Positions 49,571 through 60,884 of a stretch of 64,000 nucleotides of DNA are shown piece by piece. The notes under the pieces were generated by a model. It was not told the origin of the DNA. It made no database searches and saw nothing but the letters and a program-made list of their open reading frames with translations. The stretch covers positions 62,001 through 126,000 of the forward strand of contig JAGOQJ010000007.1 of NCBI GenBank assembly GCA_017991595.1, in the 5' to 3' direction. The position numbers were made by a program, and so were the translations under genes. Origin of the DNA: Candidatus Didemnitutus sp. GTDB taxonomy: Bacteria > Verrucomicrobiota > Verrucomicrobiia > Opitutales > Opitutaceae. Position 1 is the first letter of the stretch. Every line of letters starts with the position of its first letter.

Positions 49571-50473
49571 TCACGGCAGCCAGCCGTGGCTGCGCATCCA
49601 TTCCTCGCAGCGCTGTGGCCAGTTGGAGGTGGGGCCGAGGTCCGCGCGCATGCCGAAACCGTGCGGACCTTTTTCGTAAAGGTGGAGTTCCGCCGGCACA
49701 CCGGCCCGGCGGAGCGCAGCGTAGAAGGCCAGCGAGTTTTCGAGCGGCACGGAGGTGTCCTGCGCCGTGTGCACGAGAAACACCGGCGGCGTCTGTGCGG
49801 TGACTTGGCGGTCAGTGGACAACAGGTCCAGCAACTCCGCGGAGGGTTGCGGACCGAGGAGATTCTGGACCGACCCGCGATGGGCGTGCCGGCCTGCGAG
49901 GAGGATGACGGGGTATTGCAGCACCGCGAAATCCGGACGCGCACTCACGGCGTCGAGTGGATGGCCGGTCCGGCCCGCCGGGTGGTCGAAGAGCGTGGCG
50001 GCGCACGAAGCGAGGTGTCCGCCGGCGGAGGAACCGTAGACGCCAATGCGCGCAGGATCGACGCCGAACTCCGCGGCGCGCGCTCGCACGAGCCGCACGG
50101 CCCGCAGCACATCGCGCAAGGGCGCGGGATGGCCGTATTCCTTGAGCCGGTATTTGAGGATGAAACAGGTGATGCCCTGCGCGGTCAGCCACGCAGAAGT
50201 GGGCGTGCCTTCGACGGACACGGCCAGCCGGCCATAACCGCCGCCCGGGCAAAGGATCACCGCCGTGCCGTTCGCCTTGCCGGCCGGAGGCGCGTGGAGC
50301 GTGAGCGAGGGTTGCTGCACGTTGAACACGCGGTCGTCTTTGACGTATTCCTGTCCGCCGTCTGGTTGCGCGTCGGGCACGCCTTCGGGCCAGAGCGGGA
50401 TCATGGTCGGCTCCGCGAGGGCTAGGATCGGCGAAAGCATGAGGAGTAAGGGGAGGGTAAACGTGAGGCGCAT
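49571..50473 (-). CDS. Secreted alpha/beta-hydrolase, carbohydrate esterase-like
   Basis: 300 residues with a signal peptide (LTFTLPLLLMLSPILALA). The mature protein begins with MIPLWPEGVPDAQPD, typical of the acetylesterase/BD-FAE group found beside plant-cell-wall enzymes. The oxyanion loop is ILCPGGGYG, the nucleophile elbow GSSAGGHLAS, the acid Asp lies in VHTAQDTSVPLENS, and the base His is in EKGPHGFG. Likely substrates are acetyl or feruloyl esters on xylan or pectin. It starts 3 bp after the DUF4337 gene ends, so the two are co-transcribed, possibly by chance of packing. Confidence 0.88.
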   Translation of the reverse strand: MRLTFTLPLLLMLSPILALAEPTMIPLWPEGVPDAQPDGGQEYVKDDRVFNVQQPSLTLHAPPAGKANGTAVILCPGGGYGRLAVSVEGTPTSAWLTAQGITCFILKYRLKEYGHPAPLRDVLRAVRLVRARAAEFGVDPARIGVYGSSAGGHLASCAATLFDHPAGRTGHPLDAVSARPDFAVLQYPVILLAGRHAHRGSVQNLLGPQPSAELLDLLSTDRQVTAQTPPVFLVHTAQDTSVPLENSLAFYAALRRAGVPAELHLYEKGPHGFGMRADLGPTSNWPQRCEEWMRSHGWLP

Positions 50474-51584: not shown

Positions 51585-52682
51585 TTAGCGCACGACGCGG
51601 GCGCCGCCGCCGCCCATCGTCTTTTCGACTTCCTTGCGCGTGGCCATCGAGGTGTCGCCGGGCGTCGTCGAGGCGAGCGCACCGTGGGCCGCGCCGTATT
51701 CGACGGCTTTCTGCGGGTCGTTGAAGGTCATGAAGCCGAACTGCAGGCCCGAGGCGAAGGAGTCGCCGCCGCCGACGCGGTCGAGGATCTCGAGCTCGGG
51801 ATACTTGCGGCTCTCGTAGAACTGGCCGTCGTGCCAGAGGATCGCGGACCAGTCGTTCTTCGTCGCGGTGATGACGCGGCGGAGCGTGGTGGCGGCGACC
51901 TTGAAGTTCGGGAATTCCTTCACGGCGGTGCCGATCATGTCCTTGAACGCGTCGAGCTCGATCTTGGAGATGTTGTGGTCGGCGCCCTTGACCTCGAAGC
52001 CGAGCGAGGCGGTGAAGTCCTCCTCGTTGCCGATCATGACGTCGACATACTTCGCGATCTCGCGGTTGACCTCCTGGGCCTTCTTGAGGCCGCCGATGGT
52101 TTTCCAGAGCGAGGGGCGGTAGTTGAGGTCGTAGGAGACGATGACGCCGTGCTTCTTCGCGGCCTTGACCGCTTCAACGGTGAGTTCGGCCGTGGAGGCG
52201 GAGAGCGCGGCGAAGATGCCGCCGGTGTGGAACCAGCGGGAGCCGAGCTTGCCGAAGATGTGATCCCAGTCGAAGTCGCCCGGCTTGAGTTGCGAGGCGG
52301 CGGTGTTGCCGCGATCGGGGCAGCCGACGGCGCCGCGGATGCCGTAGCCGCGCTCGGTGAAGTTGAGGCCGTTGCGGACGTTGCGGCCGATGCCGTCGTC
52401 CTCGCGCCACTTGATGAAGTCGGTGGCGACGCCGCCTTGCATGATGAAGTCTTCGACGAGGTGGCCGACCTCGTTGTCGACGAACGCGGTGCAGACGGCG
52501 GTTTTCAGGCCGAAGCATTTGCGCAGGCCGCGCGAGGTGTTGTATTCGCCGCCGCCTTCCCACGCGGTGAAGTGCCGCGCGGTGCGGATGCGGCCCTCGC
52601 CGGGATCGAGGCGGAGCATGACCTCGCCGAGCGAGATCTGGTCAAAGGCGGTGCTGTTAGCGGGTTTGACGGGAAGGGACAT
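51585..52682 (-). CDS. kdgK: 2-Keto-3-deoxygluconate kinase (PfkB family)
   Basis: 365 residues of the ribokinase/PfkB fold: SLGEVMLRLDPGEGRIRTARHF at the N-terminus, WEGGGEYNTSRGL, YDLNYRPSLW (sugar/ATP interface) and the catalytic DRVGGGDSFASGLQFG near the C-terminus, where Asp is the base. It is close to KdgK enzymes that phosphorylate KDG to KDPG. The neighbouring KDPG aldolase, 72 bp upstream in transcription order, supports that substrate. It is the last gene of the iclR-larA-eda-kdgK unit, before a terminator. Confidence 0.92.
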   Translation of the reverse strand: MSLPVKPANSTAFDQISLGEVMLRLDPGEGRIRTARHFTAWEGGGEYNTSRGLRKCFGLKTAVCTAFVDNEVGHLVEDFIMQGGVATDFIKWREDDGIGRNVRNGLNFTERGYGIRGAVGCPDRGNTAASQLKPGDFDWDHIFGKLGSRWFHTGGIFAALSASTAELTVEAVKAAKKHGVIVSYDLNYRPSLWKTIGGLKKAQEVNREIAKYVDVMIGNEEDFTASLGFEVKGADHNISKIELDAFKDMIGTAVKEFPNFKVAATTLRRVITATKNDWSAILWHDGQFYESRKYPELEILDRVGGGDSFASGLQFGFMTFNDPQKAVEYGAAHGALASTTPGDTSMATRKEVEKTMGGGGARVVR

Positions 52683-52754: not shown

Positions 52755-53390
52755 TCAGGCCTTGTTCGCCGCGGCGACGAATTCCTTCGCGCGCAGCGTG
52801 ATCGCGGCCCAGTCCTTGGCCTTGAGCGCGGCGGGTTGCACGAGGGCGCTGCCCGCGGCGGTGGCGTAGGCGCCGGCTTTGAGGAAGTCGGCGACGGTTT
52901 CCGGCGTGACGCCGCCGGTCGGCATGATGTTCAGGAAGGGGAACGGAGCCTTGAGCGACTTGATGAAGGCCGGGCCGAAGAACTCGGCGGGGAAAACCTT
53001 CACGATGTCGGCGCCGAGCTCGTAGGTGTTGTAGGCTTCCGTCGGCGTGAGCGCGCCGCCGAGGATGGCGAGGCCGCGCTCTTTGCACGCGGCGATGACG
53101 GCCGGGCGCACGCAGGGCGTGACAATGAACTTCGCGCCGGCGGCCTGCGCTTGGGCGACGGTCTCGGCGTTGACGACGGTGCCCATGCCGAACGTGACGT
53201 TCGGGAGCTCCTTCGCGGCTTTCGCGAGGACGTCGAGCGCGCCAGGCGTGGACATCGTGAGCTCGATGACCGTGAGGCCACCGGCGGCGAGGGCGCGGGC
53301 GCAGTCGATGAGACTGTCGGGGCCGTCGGCGCGGATGAGCGCGATGACCTTCTCTTGTTTGATGCGGGCGAGGACTTCGGACTTGTTCAT
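52755..53390 (-). CDS. eda: KDPG/KHG aldolase
   Basis: 211 residues from ATG 53390. It splits 2-keto-3-deoxy-6-phosphogluconate to pyruvate and glyceraldehyde 3-phosphate. Glu43 (VIELTMSTPG) and the Schiff-base Lys131 (GADIVKVFPAEFFGP) match the catalytic pair of E. coli Eda; FIVTPCVRPAVI and MPTGGVTPE (phosphate site) are present. The length equals the family norm. It acts directly after KdgK in uronate and pectin breakdown. Confidence 0.96.
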   Translation of the reverse strand: MNKSEVLARIKQEKVIALIRADGPDSLIDCARALAAGGLTVIELTMSTPGALDVLAKAAKELPNVTFGMGTVVNAETVAQAQAAGAKFIVTPCVRPAVIAACKERGLAILGGALTPTEAYNTYELGADIVKVFPAEFFGPAFIKSLKAPFPFLNIMPTGGVTPETVADFLKAGAYATAAGSALVQPAALKAKDWAAITLRAKEFVAAANKA

Positions 53391-53541: not shown

Positions 53542-54834
53542 CTAAGCGCCACCGGCCCACTTGGGCTTCTGGCGGAGGTGATAGAGACGCTCGCCGGCCT
53601 TGGGTTCGAGGAGCACGCCTTCGTGCTCACGGTTGGCGAAGTCTTCCTTTTTGATCGTGCGCCAGTCGCGGTAGCCGAGGTTGATCTTGCGGCAAGTGGC
53701 CTCGGGGATGCCGGTGGCGAGCGTCACGCGCACGCGCGGCGTTTCGATGCCGGTGGCAGGGTCGTAGGTGCCGATGCCATGCACGTGGGTCGAGTGGGCG
53801 AGGATGCCCCAGGGCTCGTGCTGGAATTTGTCCCACTGTTTCAGGAAATATTGCACACAGTGGTAGCCGATGCGCTCGATGTTCTTCCCGTGCACGACGG
53901 AGACCTCGTGGATGTGCGGCGCGTAGATGATGAGCTCGCCGCCGTCAGCGACGACCGGCTCGAGTTTATACATGCACTTCCCGCCGACCCAGAGCTCGTC
54001 ATACATCAGCGGCGCGCAGCTGAGCACGGTGTGGAACGGGCGGTCCTTGTAAGTGATGTGGAGTTCGCGCGAGAGTTCGCTGGCGCCGTCCCACGCTTGC
54101 TCGGGCGTGCCGGCGTAGAGGCCGGCGAGTTCGCCTTTGCCCTGCACGACCATCGCGAAGCAGAACTTCGGCACCGTGACCATCGCGCCGGCGCGGTCGA
54201 CGACCTTGCGCACGGGCGTCCACTTGTTGCCGATGATCATCGGGTTGGTGACGACGGCGCCGAGCCAGTGGAAAAAATTCAGGATCTGCGGGCCGGCGAC
54301 GCCAGGGAAGAGGTATTTGTTGCCGCCCGAGAAGCCGACGACCTCGTGCGGGAAGACCGGGCCGATGATGATCAGCTGGTCGTAGTCGAATAGGCGGCGA
54401 TTGACATGCACGGGCACGTCCATCGCGAACAGGCCGCTGGAGAGCTGCTTAATCTCGTCGGCTGGGATGACGCCGAGGTCGCGCAGCGCCGTGGGATTGT
54501 CCCACTCGTGGTTGATGAACTCGACAGAGCGGTAGGTGGTGGCGCGCTCCTCGGCGGTGATCTCGACGCGCGCGTTGATGGCGTCGTCCGGCATCGGCGG
54601 ATGCGTGCCGAGGGCGATCATGACGTCGAACTTCGCGGCGACGCGGCCAAACTGCGCGAAGAGCGTCTTGAACATCAGGCCGACGGGCGCGGTGCGCGTG
54701 CCGTCGGGAATGATGAGACACACGCGCTGGCCGCGATAGGCTTCGGCCGGGCAGGCTTGGGCGACCAGCTCCGCGACTTCTTCAGGGCGGAGTGCGGCGC
54801 CGGAGGCGGCGATCTTTTGGAACGGAGCAGGCAC
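53542..54834 (-). CDS. LarA-superfamily nickel-pincer 2-hydroxyacid racemase/epimerase
   Basis: 430 residues. Key LarA positions are all present with near-exact spacing: DGTR (44-47), GTH with His78, His163 and Lys173 in FPHEVVGFSGGNKYLFPG (ten residues apart as in LarA His174/Lys184) and His189, sixteen residues after the Lys as in LarA His200. The Lys would anchor the nickel-pincer nucleotide. Family members interconvert 2-hydroxyacid epimers (lactate, malate, hydroxyglutarate, D-gluconate). Its place between an IclR regulator and eda-kdgK points to a sugar acid rather than lactate; gluconate-mannonate epimerisation would feed KDG. The cofactor-making larB, larC and larE are not in the window. 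Confidence 0.9.
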   Translation of the reverse strand: MPAPFQKIAASGAALRPEEVAELVAQACPAEAYRGQRVCLIIPDGTRTAPVGLMFKTLFAQFGRVAAKFDVMIALGTHPPMPDDAINARVEITAEERATTYRSVEFINHEWDNPTALRDLGVIPADEIKQLSSGLFAMDVPVHVNRRLFDYDQLIIIGPVFPHEVVGFSGGNKYLFPGVAGPQILNFFHWLGAVVTNPMIIGNKWTPVRKVVDRAGAMVTVPKFCFAMVVQGKGELAGLYAGTPEQAWDGASELSRELHITYKDRPFHTVLSCAPLMYDELWVGGKCMYKLEPVVADGGELIIYAPHIHEVSVVHGKNIERIGYHCVQYFLKQWDKFQHEPWGILAHSTHVHGIGTYDPATGIETPRVRVTLATGIPEATCRKINLGYRDWRTIKKEDFANREHEGVLLEPKAGERLYHLRQKPKWAGGA

Positions 54835-54896: not shown

Positions 54897-55730
54897 TCAG
54901 TCGCCCGAGGCTCCGTCGGTGTAGCCGAGACTGCGGGCCAGATCGGCGGCGGCGGCGGTGACCTTGGCGGCGAACTCAGGGATGCGCTCCTTGGAGAAGC
55001 GCACCGTGGCAGCGGTGATGCCGAGGGCGGCGACGACGTTGCCATCGGAGCCGAACACCGGGGCGGCGAGGCAGCGGACGCCGGGGTGGTATTCCTCGTT
55101 GTCGAGGCTGTAGCCGCGTTTGCGCGTGAGCTCGGCCTCGCGTTTGATCTCGGCGAAGGTCGTGAGCGTGTGCGGCGTGCGGCGGGCGGACTCCTTGCGG
55201 CTGAACCACTCGGTGAGCCGCGCTTGGTGCAGGAACGCGAGGAAGATCTTGCCCGTGGATGAGCAGTGCAGCTCCGCCAAGTAACCGGGGCGCGAGGCCG
55301 CGCGGAGCGGGTGGGGGCTGTCCTGCACGGCGACGATCAGAGCGCGGTTGTCGCAGGGAATCGCGAGGTGCGAGGTTTCCTCGGTGGTCTGCGTCAGCTG
55401 TTGCAGCACGGGCAGCGCCGCCTCGCGGATCTCGGTGCCGGCGAGCGAAGCGTTGCCGAGGTGGATGAGCACCGGGCCGAGCTCGAAGCGGCCCTCGACC
55501 TTGCGCACGAAGCCCTCGAGTTGCAGCGTGGCCATGATGCGCAGCGTCGTGGTGACGGGCAGCCCGAGCGTGCGCGCGATGTCCGCGACCTTGCAGCCCT
55601 CCTTGCTCGTCCCGAGCAGTTTGAGGATGTCGCACGCGTTCCGCAGATTCGGGATCACGTAGCGCTCCAGGCTGGAGGCAGTGTCGTCGTTTTTGCTGGC
55701 CGGACGTTTCATGGGCGAAAGGGGTCTCAT
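54897..55730 (-). CDS. IclR-family transcription regulator (KdgR-like context)
   Basis: 277 residues from ATG 55730, preceded by GGAG; ATG 55712 is an alternative. The N-terminal winged helix-turn-helix (about 25-85) has ACDILKLLG, DIARTLGLPVTTTLRIMATL and FVRKVEGRFELG. The C-terminal effector domain shows HCSSTGKIFLAFL, GYSLDNEEYHPGVRCLAAPVF and AALGITA, all typical of IclR. It is first in a same-strand unit with larA-like, eda and kdgK, and divergent from a TonB-dependent receptor. A tandem dyad 61-93 bp upstream of its start is the likely operator. Probable effector: KDG or a uronate derivative (inference). Confidence 0.94.
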   Translation of the reverse strand: MRPLSPMKRPASKNDDTASSLERYVIPNLRNACDILKLLGTSKEGCKVADIARTLGLPVTTTLRIMATLQLEGFVRKVEGRFELGPVLIHLGNASLAGTEIREAALPVLQQLTQTTEETSHLAIPCDNRALIVAVQDSPHPLRAASRPGYLAELHCSSTGKIFLAFLHQARLTEWFSRKESARRTPHTLTTFAEIKREAELTRKRGYSLDNEEYHPGVRCLAAPVFGSDGNVVAALGITAATVRFSKERIPEFAAKVTAAAADLARSLGYTDGASGD

Positions 55731-56071
55731 GCGTCTCCGCACGGCGGAGCAAGTCCGGGGCGGGGATGGGGAACTGGGAATTCTCGCCGCATCCATAAGT
55801 GAACCAGGCATTCATTAGCGAATCATTTTCCCCGCGACGTGCTTCCAGCACCCGCGAAGAGTTGGCGAGCCGGTGCTCGTCGCCGCTTGGGCGCCTGATT
55901 GTGCGGTCGCTGCTTCGGATCAGCGCGGCAACGGGCGGCGGCCTTCCCGGCACGTGGGTAAGAGGAGTCGGGCTGCGGTGATAGCAGTCGGGAGCTTTTT
56001 GTGTCATTTGTTCAACGGTGGACAAATTTCCGCCTCGCCTGCCGGTGCGTGGCCGTTTCGCATAGGGCATA
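55731..56071. other. 341-bp divergent control region between iclR and a TonB-dependent receptor gene
   Basis: Contains the tandem dyads at 55791-55823 and, nearer the receptor gene, TTGTTC-N6-GGACAA (56008-56025), a near-perfect dyad centred about 55 bp before the receptor start. No coding frame is convincing. Promoters for both directions must lie here; I could not identify clear -35/-10 boxes. Confidence 0.6.
55791..55823. promoter_or_regulatory. Tandem operator-like dyads upstream of iclR and receptor gene
   Basis: Two 14-bp dyads, ATCCATAAGTGAAC (55791-55804) and ATTCATTAGCGAAT (55810-55823), fit RTTCA-N4-TGAAY with one mismatch each and are 19 bp centre to centre, about two helical turns. 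The same pair with the same spacing occurs at 61004-61036. IclR proteins commonly bind as dimers of dimers, so this is the best candidate site for the adjacent IclR regulator. Confidence 0.65.
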
Positions 56072-58246
56072 ATGCGTCGTTTGTTGCTGTTCTGCGGGGT
56101 GTTACTCTGTGCCGGAGCTGGTTTGTGGGCTCAAACCAAGGATGAGCCGCCGCCTCTGGTGATGGATCCGTTCACCGTCGATGGGTTGGCCGATGAGGAA
56201 TACGACCGCACGGGCATGGGCTCCGTGGAGGAGCAGATCCGCGACGAGCCGTTTTCGAACGATCTCATCAGCCTCGCCGACTACACCGACGAGACCAATC
56301 TCACGCTCGAACTCGCCGCGGACCTCGCCGCGGTGTCGAATCCCTCGCCGTCCGACCGTATCGTGAGCGAGGACCGCCTCAATCTCCGCGGCTTCCCCAC
56401 GCCCACGCTGCGCAACAGCTTCATCCGCGTCGGCGTGGCGGAGTCTCTCAACAGCGGACGCACGATCGTTATCCAAGGCCCGCTCGTGCCCGTGCTCGGT
56501 CGCGCGGCGCCGGGCGGCATCCAGGATGTGCATGCGGCCCGGCCGCGCGTGAAGGCGCAGCAGCGCCTCGACCTGCAATTCACCGATCAGGACCGCCGCC
56601 GGGTCGCCTACGAGACCACGGGGCCGGTCGTGAAGAAGAAGGCCTGGCAGCGCGTCGCCGTGAACTGGCAGCGGCGCGAAGGCCCCGAGGCGTTCACGCG
56701 GGAGGAATTGCTCTCCGTCAGCACCTCGCTCACGTGGAAACACAGCCGCGCCGCCAGCTCGATGATCTCGGCCGACTATCGCGACATCAAGGCCCGGGTC
56801 ACCCCCGGCATCCCCGAGTATCGGCCCGCCGGCGGTGGCTTGATCGCCGGGCCCTATCTACCGCTCGCCTATTTCAACGCCAACGGTCCCGAAGCCGCCG
56901 TGCGCCGGCGCAGCATGACCATCGCGGCGCAGTTCGACGGCCAGATTAATCCCAATTTCTCCCTGCGCGCCAATGTCGAGGGCTGGTGGCGCGACATCGA
57001 GCAGGACCGCTTCACCACCTCCGTGCTCTCACTCGACACCGGCCTGTTCGAGGGCACGCGCGAGCCGCGTCACATCGAGCAGCCGCACCAGGCCATCGTT
57101 TCGATGGTGGAGCTCACTGGGCGTTTCCGCGCCTTCAAGGCGGTGCACAAGTTCCTCGCCACGGCGAGCCACACCTGGGGCACCTACGGACGCGAGGACC
57201 GCGCTCTCTCCATCGCCGACCGCAACGCCCTGCCGCTCAGCGTGCGGCGCTTCGATCCCTTCAATCCCGACTACTACGCGCCGGCTTACGATCCCTTGCT
57301 CTACAACCGCGTGGTGACCGACCGCACCGAACGCGCGCGCTATGGCGCGATTGAGATCAGCGATCGCATGGCCTTCGCCCGCGGACGCTGGGTGGCCTCC
57401 ACGGGCCTGCGCTACGACACCGTGGAGCTCGAGGTGCAGGACGACCGCGTCAACGCCCCGTGGCCGCTCGTGCGCGACACCGTCGCACAACTCAGCTACC
57501 ACGCCGGCCTCAACTGGCAGGTCGCCCCCAGCAAACTGCTCGCCTACGCCAGCGTCAGCACCGCCTTTGACCCTTCCACTCGCGTCGACGCGCGCACCGG
57601 CCGCATCCAGGATAACGAGACCACTCTCGGCTACGAAGCCGGCGTGAAGGGCCGCTCCTTCAAGGGCAAAGTCGACTACAGCGCGGGCGGCTTCCAGCTG
57701 TTCAACCAGCACATCTCGCGCCGCAATCCGCTCTACGACGACCCGATCGCCGATGCGAACCAGACGCAGCCGCAACTTGTCGCCGCCGGCGAGGAGCGTT
57801 ACCGCGGCCTGCGCTTCGACCTGCGTTGGCAGATCGCCAAGCCCGTCCTCTTCATCGCGCGTTCGGTTTACATGAAGGCCGTGACCACCGCGTCGCCCGA
57901 CTTGCCGCAAGAAATCGGCCGCGAGATCTCGCGCCTGCCCGGCTTCACCGCCACCGCGCAGCTGCGTTATCGCTCGCTGGCCAAGACGGGCGGCTGGTTC
58001 AGCTCCGGCACCTGGCAATACATCGACGGCTACGTTGGCAATTACGCCGACACCCGCCGCGCCTATCTTGAATACCCCGGCTACGGCGTCGTGCACGGCA
58101 ACGTCGGCTACTCCTGGCGCGGTCCCAAGCGCACGCTCGAGGTCGAGACCGGCGTGCGCAACCTCTTCGACCGCGACCTGCTCACCAGCCACGCGCGCGT
58201 CAACGCCGACCGCGAGCTCACGTTCACGACGCGCCTGTATTTCTGA
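56072..58246 (+). CDS. TonB-dependent outer-membrane receptor-like protein
   Basis: 724 residues with a signal peptide (RRLLLFCGVLLCAGAGLWAQ). A plug-like region follows (about 30-170; DRLNLRGFPTPTLRNSFIRVG), then a 22-strand-type barrel ending in the aromatic TFTTRLYF. TRNLFDRD-type sequence near the end (GVRNLFDRDLL) is a hallmark of TonB receptors. It is related to the abundant Opitutaceae receptors, without an N-terminal carboxypeptidase-like domain. Divergent from iclR and upstream of a pectin methylesterase-GH43 gene, so oligogalacturonide or another pectin fragment is a reasonable cargo guess. Confidence 0.88.
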   Translation: MRRLLLFCGVLLCAGAGLWAQTKDEPPPLVMDPFTVDGLADEEYDRTGMGSVEEQIRDEPFSNDLISLADYTDETNLTLELAADLAAVSNPSPSDRIVSEDRLNLRGFPTPTLRNSFIRVGVAESLNSGRTIVIQGPLVPVLGRAAPGGIQDVHAARPRVKAQQRLDLQFTDQDRRRVAYETTGPVVKKKAWQRVAVNWQRREGPEAFTREELLSVSTSLTWKHSRAASSMISADYRDIKARVTPGIPEYRPAGGGLIAGPYLPLAYFNANGPEAAVRRRSMTIAAQFDGQINPNFSLRANVEGWWRDIEQDRFTTSVLSLDTGLFEGTREPRHIEQPHQAIVSMVELTGRFRAFKAVHKFLATASHTWGTYGREDRALSIADRNALPLSVRRFDPFNPDYYAPAYDPLLYNRVVTDRTERARYGAIEISDRMAFARGRWVASTGLRYDTVELEVQDDRVNAPWPLVRDTVAQLSYHAGLNWQVAPSKLLAYASVSTAFDPSTRVDARTGRIQDNETTLGYEAGVKGRSFKGKVDYSAGGFQLFNQHISRRNPLYDDPIADANQTQPQLVAAGEERYRGLRFDLRWQIAKPVLFIARSVYMKAVTTASPDLPQEIGREISRLPGFTATAQLRYRSLAKTGGWFSSGTWQYIDGYVGNYADTRRAYLEYPGYGVVHGNVGYSWRGPKRTLEVETGVRNLFDRDLLTSHARVNADRELTFTTRLYF

Positions 58247-58361: not shown

Positions 58362-60884
58362 ATGAGATTCGTTTTTGCGTGCCTGCTGTCGTTGCTCGGG
58401 TTCCTGCCCGCGTGGGCTGGGGAAGCGGCCTTCGCGGCTGATGCGGTCGTCGCGGCCGACGGCTCCGGGGATTACCGCTCGTTGCAGGAGGCGATCAGCG
58501 CCGCACCGATGCGCGCGCCCGCTGCGGGTGCGCTCTGGCGCATCCTCGTCCGGCCCGGCGTCTATGAGGAGCGCATCTACGTGCAGCGTGAGCGCGGGCG
58601 CATGCACATCCGCGGCGAGGACGCCGCGCGCACCGTGATCCGTTACCACCTCCACGCCGGCGTCGTGGGTGAGGACGGCAAACCCATCGGCACCTTCCGC
58701 ACGCCCACGGTGCACATCGACGCGGACGACATGATCTGGGAAAACCTCACGCTCGCCAACACCGCCGGCCCGGTCGGGCAGGCCCTCGCGCTCCGCGCGG
58801 ACGGCGACCGGTTGCAGTTCCGCGGTTGTCGTTTCCTCGGCTGGCAGGACACCGTGCTGCTGAACCGCGGACGGCATTACTTCGAGCAGTGTTACATCGA
58901 AGGCCACGTGGATTTCATCTTCGGCGCCGCGACGGCGTGGTGGCAGGATTGTCACATCCATGTGCTGCGCGACGGCTACATCACCGCCGCGTCGACACCG
59001 GCGGAGCAGCCGCATGGGTTTGTGTTCGCCGATTGCCGCATCACCGGCGAGGAAGGCGCGCGCACTTATCTGGGCCGGCCGTGGCGCGACTACGCCGCGA
59101 CGGTGTTCCTGCGCACGACGATGACGGGGGCGGTGCGGCCCGAGGGCTGGCACAATTGGAAAAAGCTCCACGCCGAGCATACCGCACGCTACGCCGAGCA
59201 CGGCTCGCGTGGTGCCGGCGCCAACGACGCGGCGCGCGTGCCGTGGGCGCGGCGCCTGACCGAGTCCGAGGCGGCGGTGCTCACACCCGCGGCCGTATTG
59301 GGCGGAGCGGATGGCTGGGATCCTCTAGCGTCCGCTGGCCAAGCCGCGCCGTGGATGCCCGACCTCGGCGACGGGCGCTACCGCAACCCGGTCCTTGCCG
59401 CGGATTATTCCGATCCCGACGCCGTGCGCGTGGGCGACGATTATTGGCTGACTTCGTCCAGTTTTAGTCAGGTGCCCGGCCTGCCGATCCTGCACTCGCG
59501 CGATCTGGTGAACTGGCGTCTGGTCACGCACGCGCTGCCGCGCTTGGTGCCGGAGGCGGCGTTTGCGCAGCCACAGCCCGGCAAGGGCGTGTGGGCGCCC
59601 TCGTTGCGTCACCACGACGGCAAATTCTGGCTCTATTACCCGGACCCCGATTTCGGGATCTATCTCATCACGGCCACCGATCCGCGCGGACCATGGAGCG
59701 CTCCGGTGCTCGTCAAGGCGGGGCAAGGCCTGATCGATCCCTGCCCGTTGTGGGACGAGGATGGCACACTCTACCTGATCCACGCGTGGGCAAAGTCGCG
59801 CTCCGGCATCAACAACGTTCTCACGCTGCTGCGGCTTGATGCGACGGGCACGCGCGTCGAAGAGGATTTCGGCGTAGTGATCGACGGCCACCGCCTGCCC
59901 GGTTACCGCACGCTCGAGGGACCGAAGCTCTACCGGCGCAACGGCTGGTATTATGTTTTCGCGCCCGCCGGCGGCGTGAAGGAGGGCTGGCAATCGGTCT
60001 TCCGTGCCCGCGATTTGCGCGGCCCCTACGAGGATCGCATCGTGCTCGAGCAGGGCTCGACCCCGATCAACGGCCCGCACCAAGGCGCGCTCGTCGACAC
60101 GCCCGGTGGCGAGTGGTGGTTCTTACATTTTCAAGACAAGGAGGCTTATGGCCGCGTCGTGCACCTGCAGCCCGTGCGTTGGCAGGACGACTGGCCGGTG
60201 ATCGGTCGCGATGACGATGGCGACGGGCGCGGCAAGCCTGTGCTCGTGCATCGCAAGCCGGCGCTGCCTCCGCAAGTGCCCGCGGCGCCCACGACTAGCG
60301 ATGAGTTCGAATCCAGCACGCTCGGGTTGGCGTGGCAGTGGTCGGCGAATCCCGAGGAGCGTTGGTATTCGCTCACCCAGATGCCGGGTGCGCTGTGGCT
60401 CGCGGCGCAGGCGATCCGTGGTCCCAACCTGCACACGGCGCCCAATCTGCTGCTCCAGAAATTTCCGGCCGAGGAGTTTTCCGTCACCACACGGTTGAGC
60501 GTCGCTGCGGGCACACGGGCCGGACTGGTCGTTTACGGGGCGAGCTACGCTTGGCTCGGCGTCGAGTTCGGCGCGTCAGGAGCGCGCGTGGTGTTGCGCC
60601 AATGCGCTGACAAAGCCCCGACGGCCGCGGAGCGGGAAGAATTCGCCGCCGATCTGCCGGGTGGGCCGGTGGAATTGCGTGTGACCGTGCGGTCCGGTGC
60701 GCGGTGCGAGTTCAGTTACCGTGGGGCAGGGGAGGCGGAGTTCCGCGTCCTGCCATGGCCATTCGCGGCGCGCCCCGGGCGTTGGATCGGGGCGAAGGTG
60801 GGACTCTTTTGCCAGCAAACCGGCGATGCGCCGGGTGGCGTGACGGCGGATTATTTTCGCGTGACGGCGGTGCGGCCGGAGTGA
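58362..60884 (+). CDS. Secreted bifunctional pectin methylesterase (CE8) and GH43 glycosidase
   Basis: 840 residues with a signal peptide (RFVFACLLSLLGFLPAWAGE). The CE8 domain (about 27-320) has PGVYEER, GWQDTVL, GHVDFIFGAATAW (catalytic Asp) and YLGRPWRDYAA (catalytic Arg). The GH43 five-blade propeller (about 345-640) has the three acids: Asp in ADYSDPDAVRVG, Asp in LIDPCPLWDEDGT and Glu in TLEGPKLYRRNGWYY. A C-terminal beta-sandwich of the GH43 C2 type (about 650-840) ends the protein. It should demethylate pectin and trim arabinose, xylose or galactose side chains in one polypeptide. It lies between two TonB receptor genes in a pectin locus. Confidence 0.95.
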   Translation: MRFVFACLLSLLGFLPAWAGEAAFAADAVVAADGSGDYRSLQEAISAAPMRAPAAGALWRILVRPGVYEERIYVQRERGRMHIRGEDAARTVIRYHLHAGVVGEDGKPIGTFRTPTVHIDADDMIWENLTLANTAGPVGQALALRADGDRLQFRGCRFLGWQDTVLLNRGRHYFEQCYIEGHVDFIFGAATAWWQDCHIHVLRDGYITAASTPAEQPHGFVFADCRITGEEGARTYLGRPWRDYAATVFLRTTMTGAVRPEGWHNWKKLHAEHTARYAEHGSRGAGANDAARVPWARRLTESEAAVLTPAAVLGGADGWDPLASAGQAAPWMPDLGDGRYRNPVLAADYSDPDAVRVGDDYWLTSSSFSQVPGLPILHSRDLVNWRLVTHALPRLVPEAAFAQPQPGKGVWAPSLRHHDGKFWLYYPDPDFGIYLITATDPRGPWSAPVLVKAGQGLIDPCPLWDEDGTLYLIHAWAKSRSGINNVLTLLRLDATGTRVEEDFGVVIDGHRLPGYRTLEGPKLYRRNGWYYVFAPAGGVKEGWQSVFRARDLRGPYEDRIVLEQGSTPINGPHQGALVDTPGGEWWFLHFQDKEAYGRVVHLQPVRWQDDWPVIGRDDDGDGRGKPVLVHRKPALPPQVPAAPTTSDEFESSTLGLAWQWSANPEERWYSLTQMPGALWLAAQAIRGPNLHTAPNLLLQKFPAEEFSVTTRLSVAAGTRAGLVVYGASYAWLGVEFGASGARVVLRQCADKAPTAAEREEFAADLPGGPVELRVTVRSGARCEFSYRGAGEAEFRVLPWPFAARPGRWIGAKVGLFCQQTGDAPGGVTADYFRVTAVRPE

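Follow-up and report, generated by a model that had tools for sequence, protein, structure and literature searches.

A GntE2-like LarA-superfamily protein in a pectin-associated operon of Opitutaceae, most of which lack detectable larB, larC and larE

The current view of LarA enzymes is that the cell itself supplies them, through LarB, LarE and LarC, with the nickel-pincer nucleotide (NPN) on which they depend. In the window (the whole analyzed stretch of 64,000 nucleotides from Candidatus Didemnitutus sp.) a gene for a LarA-type protein lies in one operon with genes for a regulator, an aldolase and a candidate KDG kinase, close to genes for pectin degradation. This locus raises the question of which reaction such a protein would contribute to uronate catabolism, in which direction, and how it would be supplied with its cofactor. 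The relevant features are the following.

53542..54834, minus strand: LarA-superfamily protein, putative GntE2-like sugar-acid 2-epimerase (430 aa, GTG start; assigned by Lar_N, the match to 4NAR and its residues)
54316..54351, minus strand: cofactor-loop codons PHEVVGFSGGNK, residues 162-173, with catalytic His163, substrate-loop Glu164-Val165 and NPN-anchoring Lys173
54897..55811, minus strand: IclR-family regulator (IclR_C 144.6 bits, HTH_IclR 41.4 bits; KdgR model 121.9 against a cut-off of 275)
52755..53390, minus strand: KDPG/KHG aldolase, eda (PF01081 162 bits; TIGR01182 190.3 against a cut-off of 156)
51585..52682, minus strand: PfkB-family KDG kinase, kdgK-like (PF00294 57.8 bits; top NCBIfam matches of the KDG-kinase type, under curated cut-offs)
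58362..60884, plus strand: pectinesterase-GH43 fusion on the divergent side of the pectin cluster (PF01095 207.9 bits, PF04616 249.7 bits)
49571..50473, minus strand: esterase of BD-FAE/PaeX type, lying downstream of the operon and possibly acting as a pectin acetylesterase (PF20434 81.8 bits; PaeX model 234 against a cut-off of 550)

The protein encoded at 53542-54834 is a member of the LarA superfamily. The Pfam domain Lar_N covers its residues 33-191 (70.5 bits, cut-off 23.3), and it is the single Lar_N protein found in the source genome (G000). The nearest solved relative in a phmmer search against the PDB is 4NAR (232.9 bits, residues 31-423), that is, T. maritima GntE2 (LarAH20), an enzyme with demonstrated NPN-dependent 2-epimerase activity on D-gluconate/D-mannonate (PMC7583248). 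4NAR is also the top Foldseek match of the AlphaFold model (mean pLDDT 94.5), with a predicted fold similarity of TM 0.85 (E 2.1e-44), and lactate and malate racemases follow well behind. Since the nearest solved relative is a demonstrated epimerase, the reading of the protein as a putative sugar-acid epimerase is well supported.

The cofactor-binding and catalytic sites are complete. NPN-binding Arg47 (phosphate), Lys173 and His189 correspond to R75, K184 and H200 of LarA, and catalytic Asp44, His78, His163 and Lys286 to D72, H108, H174 and K298 (reference residues from PMC7583248). The first-pass annotation had named His78, His163, Lys173 and His189, and all four are indeed at the LarA-equivalent positions, Asp44, Arg47 and Lys286 completing the set. 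His163, Glu164 and Lys173 are kept in 102 of 102 orthologue rows (some genomes being counted twice), and Val165 in every row except L025 (46-48% identical). Loop residues Glu164-Val165 together with Trp190 match the signature of the hexonate groups 18-20, a Glu-Val/Ser loop plus Trp (PMC7583248). By this signature and the nearest relative, rather than by a tree with reference sequences, the protein may be placed near GntE groups 19/20, and it probably interconverts mannonate and gluconate.

Lactate racemase was rejected as the identity of this protein (Phe-Phe loop lacking; 69 bits where 460 are required), as were LarA groups 12/13/16, which are devoid of the NPN residues, all of them being present here, and group 18 proper (NF052594; 176.3 bits against a curated cut-off of 500). 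The initial suggestion of a LarA-type sugar-acid 2-epimerase, not a lactate racemase, is borne out by the relationship to GntE2, the loop and Trp190, and the location in a pectin/uronate cluster.

The genes iclR, larA, eda and kdgK are codirectional, with gaps of 62, 151 and 72 bases in that order, and the Pfam and NCBIfam matches agree with the identities proposed earlier for the neighbors of larA, all on the minus strand. The accompanying proposal of pectin control is plausible from the neighboring pectinases, but the IclR protein scores under every curated KdgR cut-off. Past the window end, the divergent side of the cluster extends on the same contig with genes for a DUF4861 protein, a GH88-GH28 fusion, an MFS transporter and a pectate lyase-esterase fusion, and, approximately 18-23 kb from larA, an SDR, a divergent UxaE-like protein and UxaC. 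The top NCBIfam match of this SDR is D-mannonate oxidoreductase, under the cut-off; a D-mannonate-oxidoreductase-like SDR is close to larA in 53 of 101 loci and is the commonest neighbor outside Opitutaceae. Neighbors of larA in relatives comprise kduI, kduD, uxaC, uxaE-like, SDR and pectinase genes, and in four genomes (G040, G074, G096, G147) uxuA lies within the larA operon itself (larA-eda-uxuA-kdgK). On the basis of this gene neighborhood we place the enzyme in hexuronate catabolism, at the point where mannonate is handled.

Three two-domain pectin enzymes are encoded in one cluster, the pectinesterase-GH43 protein (window 58362-60884) and the GH88-GH28 and pectate lyase-esterase proteins (L188:11168-13732; L188:15274-17289). 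Between iclR and the pectinesterase gene there is an ORF, 56072-58246 (724 aa), with 66-98% identity in G133, G040 and G074 and no Pfam match; a TonB label considered for it was dropped, having no Pfam backing. A UxaE-like protein seen at L078:6868-8691 and L190:2303-4144 is long (607-614 aa) and divergent and adjoins UxaC, its match to the tagaturonate-epimerase family being confined to the middle (29 bits, cut-off 27).

Profile searches of the source genome, 87% complete, found no LarC and no LarE above the cut-off and no AIRC-family protein whatever, purE being missing as well; the larC and larE profiles were positive in T. maritima, used as the control. The first-pass annotation had deduced from the conserved residues that the protein should be active and had named absence of larB, larC and larE as evidence against its reading. 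At the sensitivity of the profiles, the three genes are missing from this genome and from nearly all of its close relatives, and that deduction is not supported. Their absence weakens the case for the protein working with NPN made by the cell itself, whereas its homology to LarA is unaffected. In particular, larB, larC and larE are all absent in 18 of the 22 Opitutaceae genomes with an orthologue, closed and 100%-complete ones included, and the four that do have them are G052 and, at a greater distance, G048, G101 and G137. The absence spans at least seven genera. Besides the source genome, there are 17 such orphan genomes, 92-100% complete, one of them a closed chromosome, and the probability of this pattern arising through incompleteness is about 1e-31; loss by incompleteness is therefore not credible.

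LarC and LarE co-occur in the identical 28 of 150 family genomes, and a LarB-like second AIRC match is observed only in genomes with LarC, beside it (24 family genomes searched for AIRC). The orthologue and larC show no association in the family (4/22 versus 24/128, Fisher p = 1), and 37 of 53 LarA-bearing family genomes have no larC. Outside Opitutaceae, LarC was found in 44 of 49 Verrucomicrobiota genomes with an orthologue (p = 5e-9 versus Opitutaceae), these being draft genomes profiled for LarC alone, in which LarC could serve other LarA proteins too. Moreover, a second LarA subfamily (LarA1-like, close to lactate racemase), with its motif intact, occurs in larBCE-less genomes, e.g. G040, G136, G119 and G085.

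Several related patterns were observed in the same genomes and in other Verrucomicrobiota. A group-18 hexonate epimerase is encoded in genomes without LarC in genus g17 (G016, G086, G108, G142; e.g. L026, L175, L176), which would be a further orphaned LarA subfamily, in another genus. The reverse decoupling, larC and larE without a LarA relative (search with the LarA of the window, E 1e-3), is seen in G014, G019, G032, G036, G058, G078, G083, G089, G091, G110, G127 and G144. In G153, G160, G151, G158, G154, G164, G171 and G174, Verrucomicrobiota that do not belong to Opitutaceae, LarC has an in-frame stop or falls into two pieces near model position 235, which recalls the frameshifted larC of L. 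plantarum.

The orphan proteins group together in the maximum-likelihood tree, as a single clade (support 100/99) nested among LarC-bearing ones, with G052 as the sole larBCE carrier within it. The cofactor and catalytic residues are all retained in about 100 orthologues, orphan and LarC-bearing, and 98 positions are invariant across both sets. Cofactor-switch substitutions near the active site were sought as clade-specific changes, and V90/L90 alone turned up; this single fixed difference between the sets is outside the known active-site residues. Pairwise dN/dS inside the orphan clade is 0.03-0.20, that is, the proteins are under purifying selection. The second intact LarA subfamily, the unchanged residues and purifying selection make a general NPN supply across the family, whatever its origin, seem likelier than decay or a switch confined to a single enzyme.

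As for the direction of the reaction, the first-pass annotation had proposed a route from gluconate via mannonate to KDG. UxuA mannonate dehydratase was not found by profile search in the source genome, in its closest relative G133 (LarA 94% identical), in the closed relative genome G071, or in G065, G059, G015 and G048, and the first three retain larA-eda-kdgK despite this. Edd is above the cut-off in none of the 22 orthologue-bearing genomes, and gluconokinase (GntK) in 15 of them, the source genome among them; G133 and G071 have gluconokinase too. In T. maritima, with the gene order gnd-uxaE-uxaD-gntE-gntK, the branch proposed runs from mannonate to gluconate (PMC3750489), opposite to the first-pass route. 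Since no UxuA was found, gluconokinase is present and this precedent exists, mannonate to gluconate appears to be favored over gluconate to KDG in the source species, and the latter is possible in the four uxuA-carrying relatives. Location of gntK 12-16 kb from larA in G040, G074 and G071 was considered as a functional link and set aside: in the source genome gntK is on a different contig, next to genes for RNase III and an ABC transporter, and its flanking genes in G040 and G074 match these in size, so its proximity to larA is taken as synteny.

From these observations we infer the substrate, the direction, and the identity and source of the cofactor as follows. Pectin-derived galacturonate would be converted to D-mannonate by UxaC, the UxaE-like epimerase and the SDR acting as fructuronate reductase. 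The LarA protein would invert C2 of D-mannonate by transient hydride transfer to NPN, yielding D-gluconate, and gluconokinase would convert it to 6-phosphogluconate. Eda and KdgK of the same operon would serve the KduI/KduD branch or, where uxuA exists, UxuA-derived KDG. NPN would not be made via LarB-LarE-LarC, the cofactor being imported or produced by other genes. On balance, we consider a GntE-type NPN-dependent D-mannonate/D-gluconate 2-epimerase, acting from mannonate through gluconate to 6-phosphogluconate with NPN imported or otherwise made, to be moderately probable. The absence of larBCE counts against it, NPN loading of the protein thus having no direct support, and uxuA inside the larA operon of four relatives suits the opposite direction equally well.

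That opposite direction, with LarA converting gluconate to mannonate and UxuA passing it to KDG for KdgK and Eda, is also in line with the KDG kinase and aldolase genes adjoining larA in the window. Still, it seems unlikely, since the searches of G000, G133 and G071 gave no UxuA, all three have gluconokinase, and the upper galacturonate pathway of the same contig already gives mannonate. We are equally doubtful about the same LarA chemistry on another substrate, namely altronate/allonate, a hexarate, or the alpha-hydroxyl at C5 of a uronate. In its favor, uronic acids are alpha-hydroxy acids at C5, the identity to GntE2 is only about 36-40%, and a preference of group 19 for a uronic or aldaric acid has been suspected (PMC7583248). 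Against it, the loop and Trp signature is that of D-gluconate epimerases, and the frequent D-mannonate-oxidoreductase-like SDR near larA also argues for mannonate.

The remaining alternatives concern the cofactor. It is less likely still that the clade has changed its cofactor or dropped NPN, the LarA scaffold working with another pyridinium or metal or having a non-catalytic role. Complete absence of larB, larC and larE over so many genera under ongoing purifying selection would agree with this, but Lys173, Arg47, the Ni ligand His189 and the two catalytic His do not vary, V90/L90 is the sole fixed difference, and conservation of the LarA1-like subfamily in larBCE-less genomes speaks for a common NPN supply over a change confined to a single enzyme. 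An artefact, with larBCE existing outside the assemblies or being too divergent for the profiles, is very improbable. The incompleteness of G000, where even purE is missing, speaks for it; against it are the 17 more complete orthologue genomes without all three genes, the selection of identical 28 family genomes by the LarC and LarE profiles, and the success of the LarC profile in most of the other Verrucomicrobiota drafts.

The chemistry of such an enzyme and its role in galacturonate catabolism are already known from T. maritima, and the reading proposed here would be the second example, in a distant organism, of the branch from mannonate to gluconate suggested for that species. In the literature searched, outside which the 2014 survey lies, no description was found of LarA retained in the absence of larBCE, or of NPN uptake. 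An intact LarA in a core catabolic operon without larBCE would mean that NPN is shared between bacteria, or that there is a second route to it or a different cofactor. That this pectin-degrading Opitutaceae lineage uses LarA with NPN from outside, or with NPN or a substitute from an undescribed pathway, is a tentative proposal, to which we give slightly less than an even chance. If true, it would imply that the lineage is auxotrophic for NPN, has a second pathway to it, or uses a LarA cofactor that is new.

Among the known systems, the LarA lactate racemase of L. plantarum (5HUQ) shares the superfamily fold, cofactor site and catalytic residues with the protein studied here, but is only 16% identical to it, has Phe-Phe instead of Glu-Val in the loop, and differs in that no larBCE genes are linked to larA here. 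The best NCBIfam resemblance is to LarAH group 18 (NF052594, putative hexonate epimerase), with the PHEV loop common to both, whereas group 18 proper is represented in other Opitutaceae by a distinct protein (L026, 645 bits against the cut-off of 500), which has Phe at the position of Trp190 and A-N-Y/H where S-G-G stands here. In about 15% of genomes larBCE occur without larA (PMC11796402), which likewise decouples NPN synthesis from LarA; here the reverse is seen, LarA being kept and the synthesis genes gone. T. maritima has larC and larE, unlike the source organism and most of its relatives, and GntE2, apart from its limited identity, is associated with gnd-gntK there and not with iclR-eda-kdgK. 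Still, the closest similarity is to GntE2, in the fold, the NPN-binding and catalytic residues, the substrate-loop Glu, the Trp following the Ni-ligand His, and the setting, a pectin/galacturonate locus that also encodes UxaE and a reductase.
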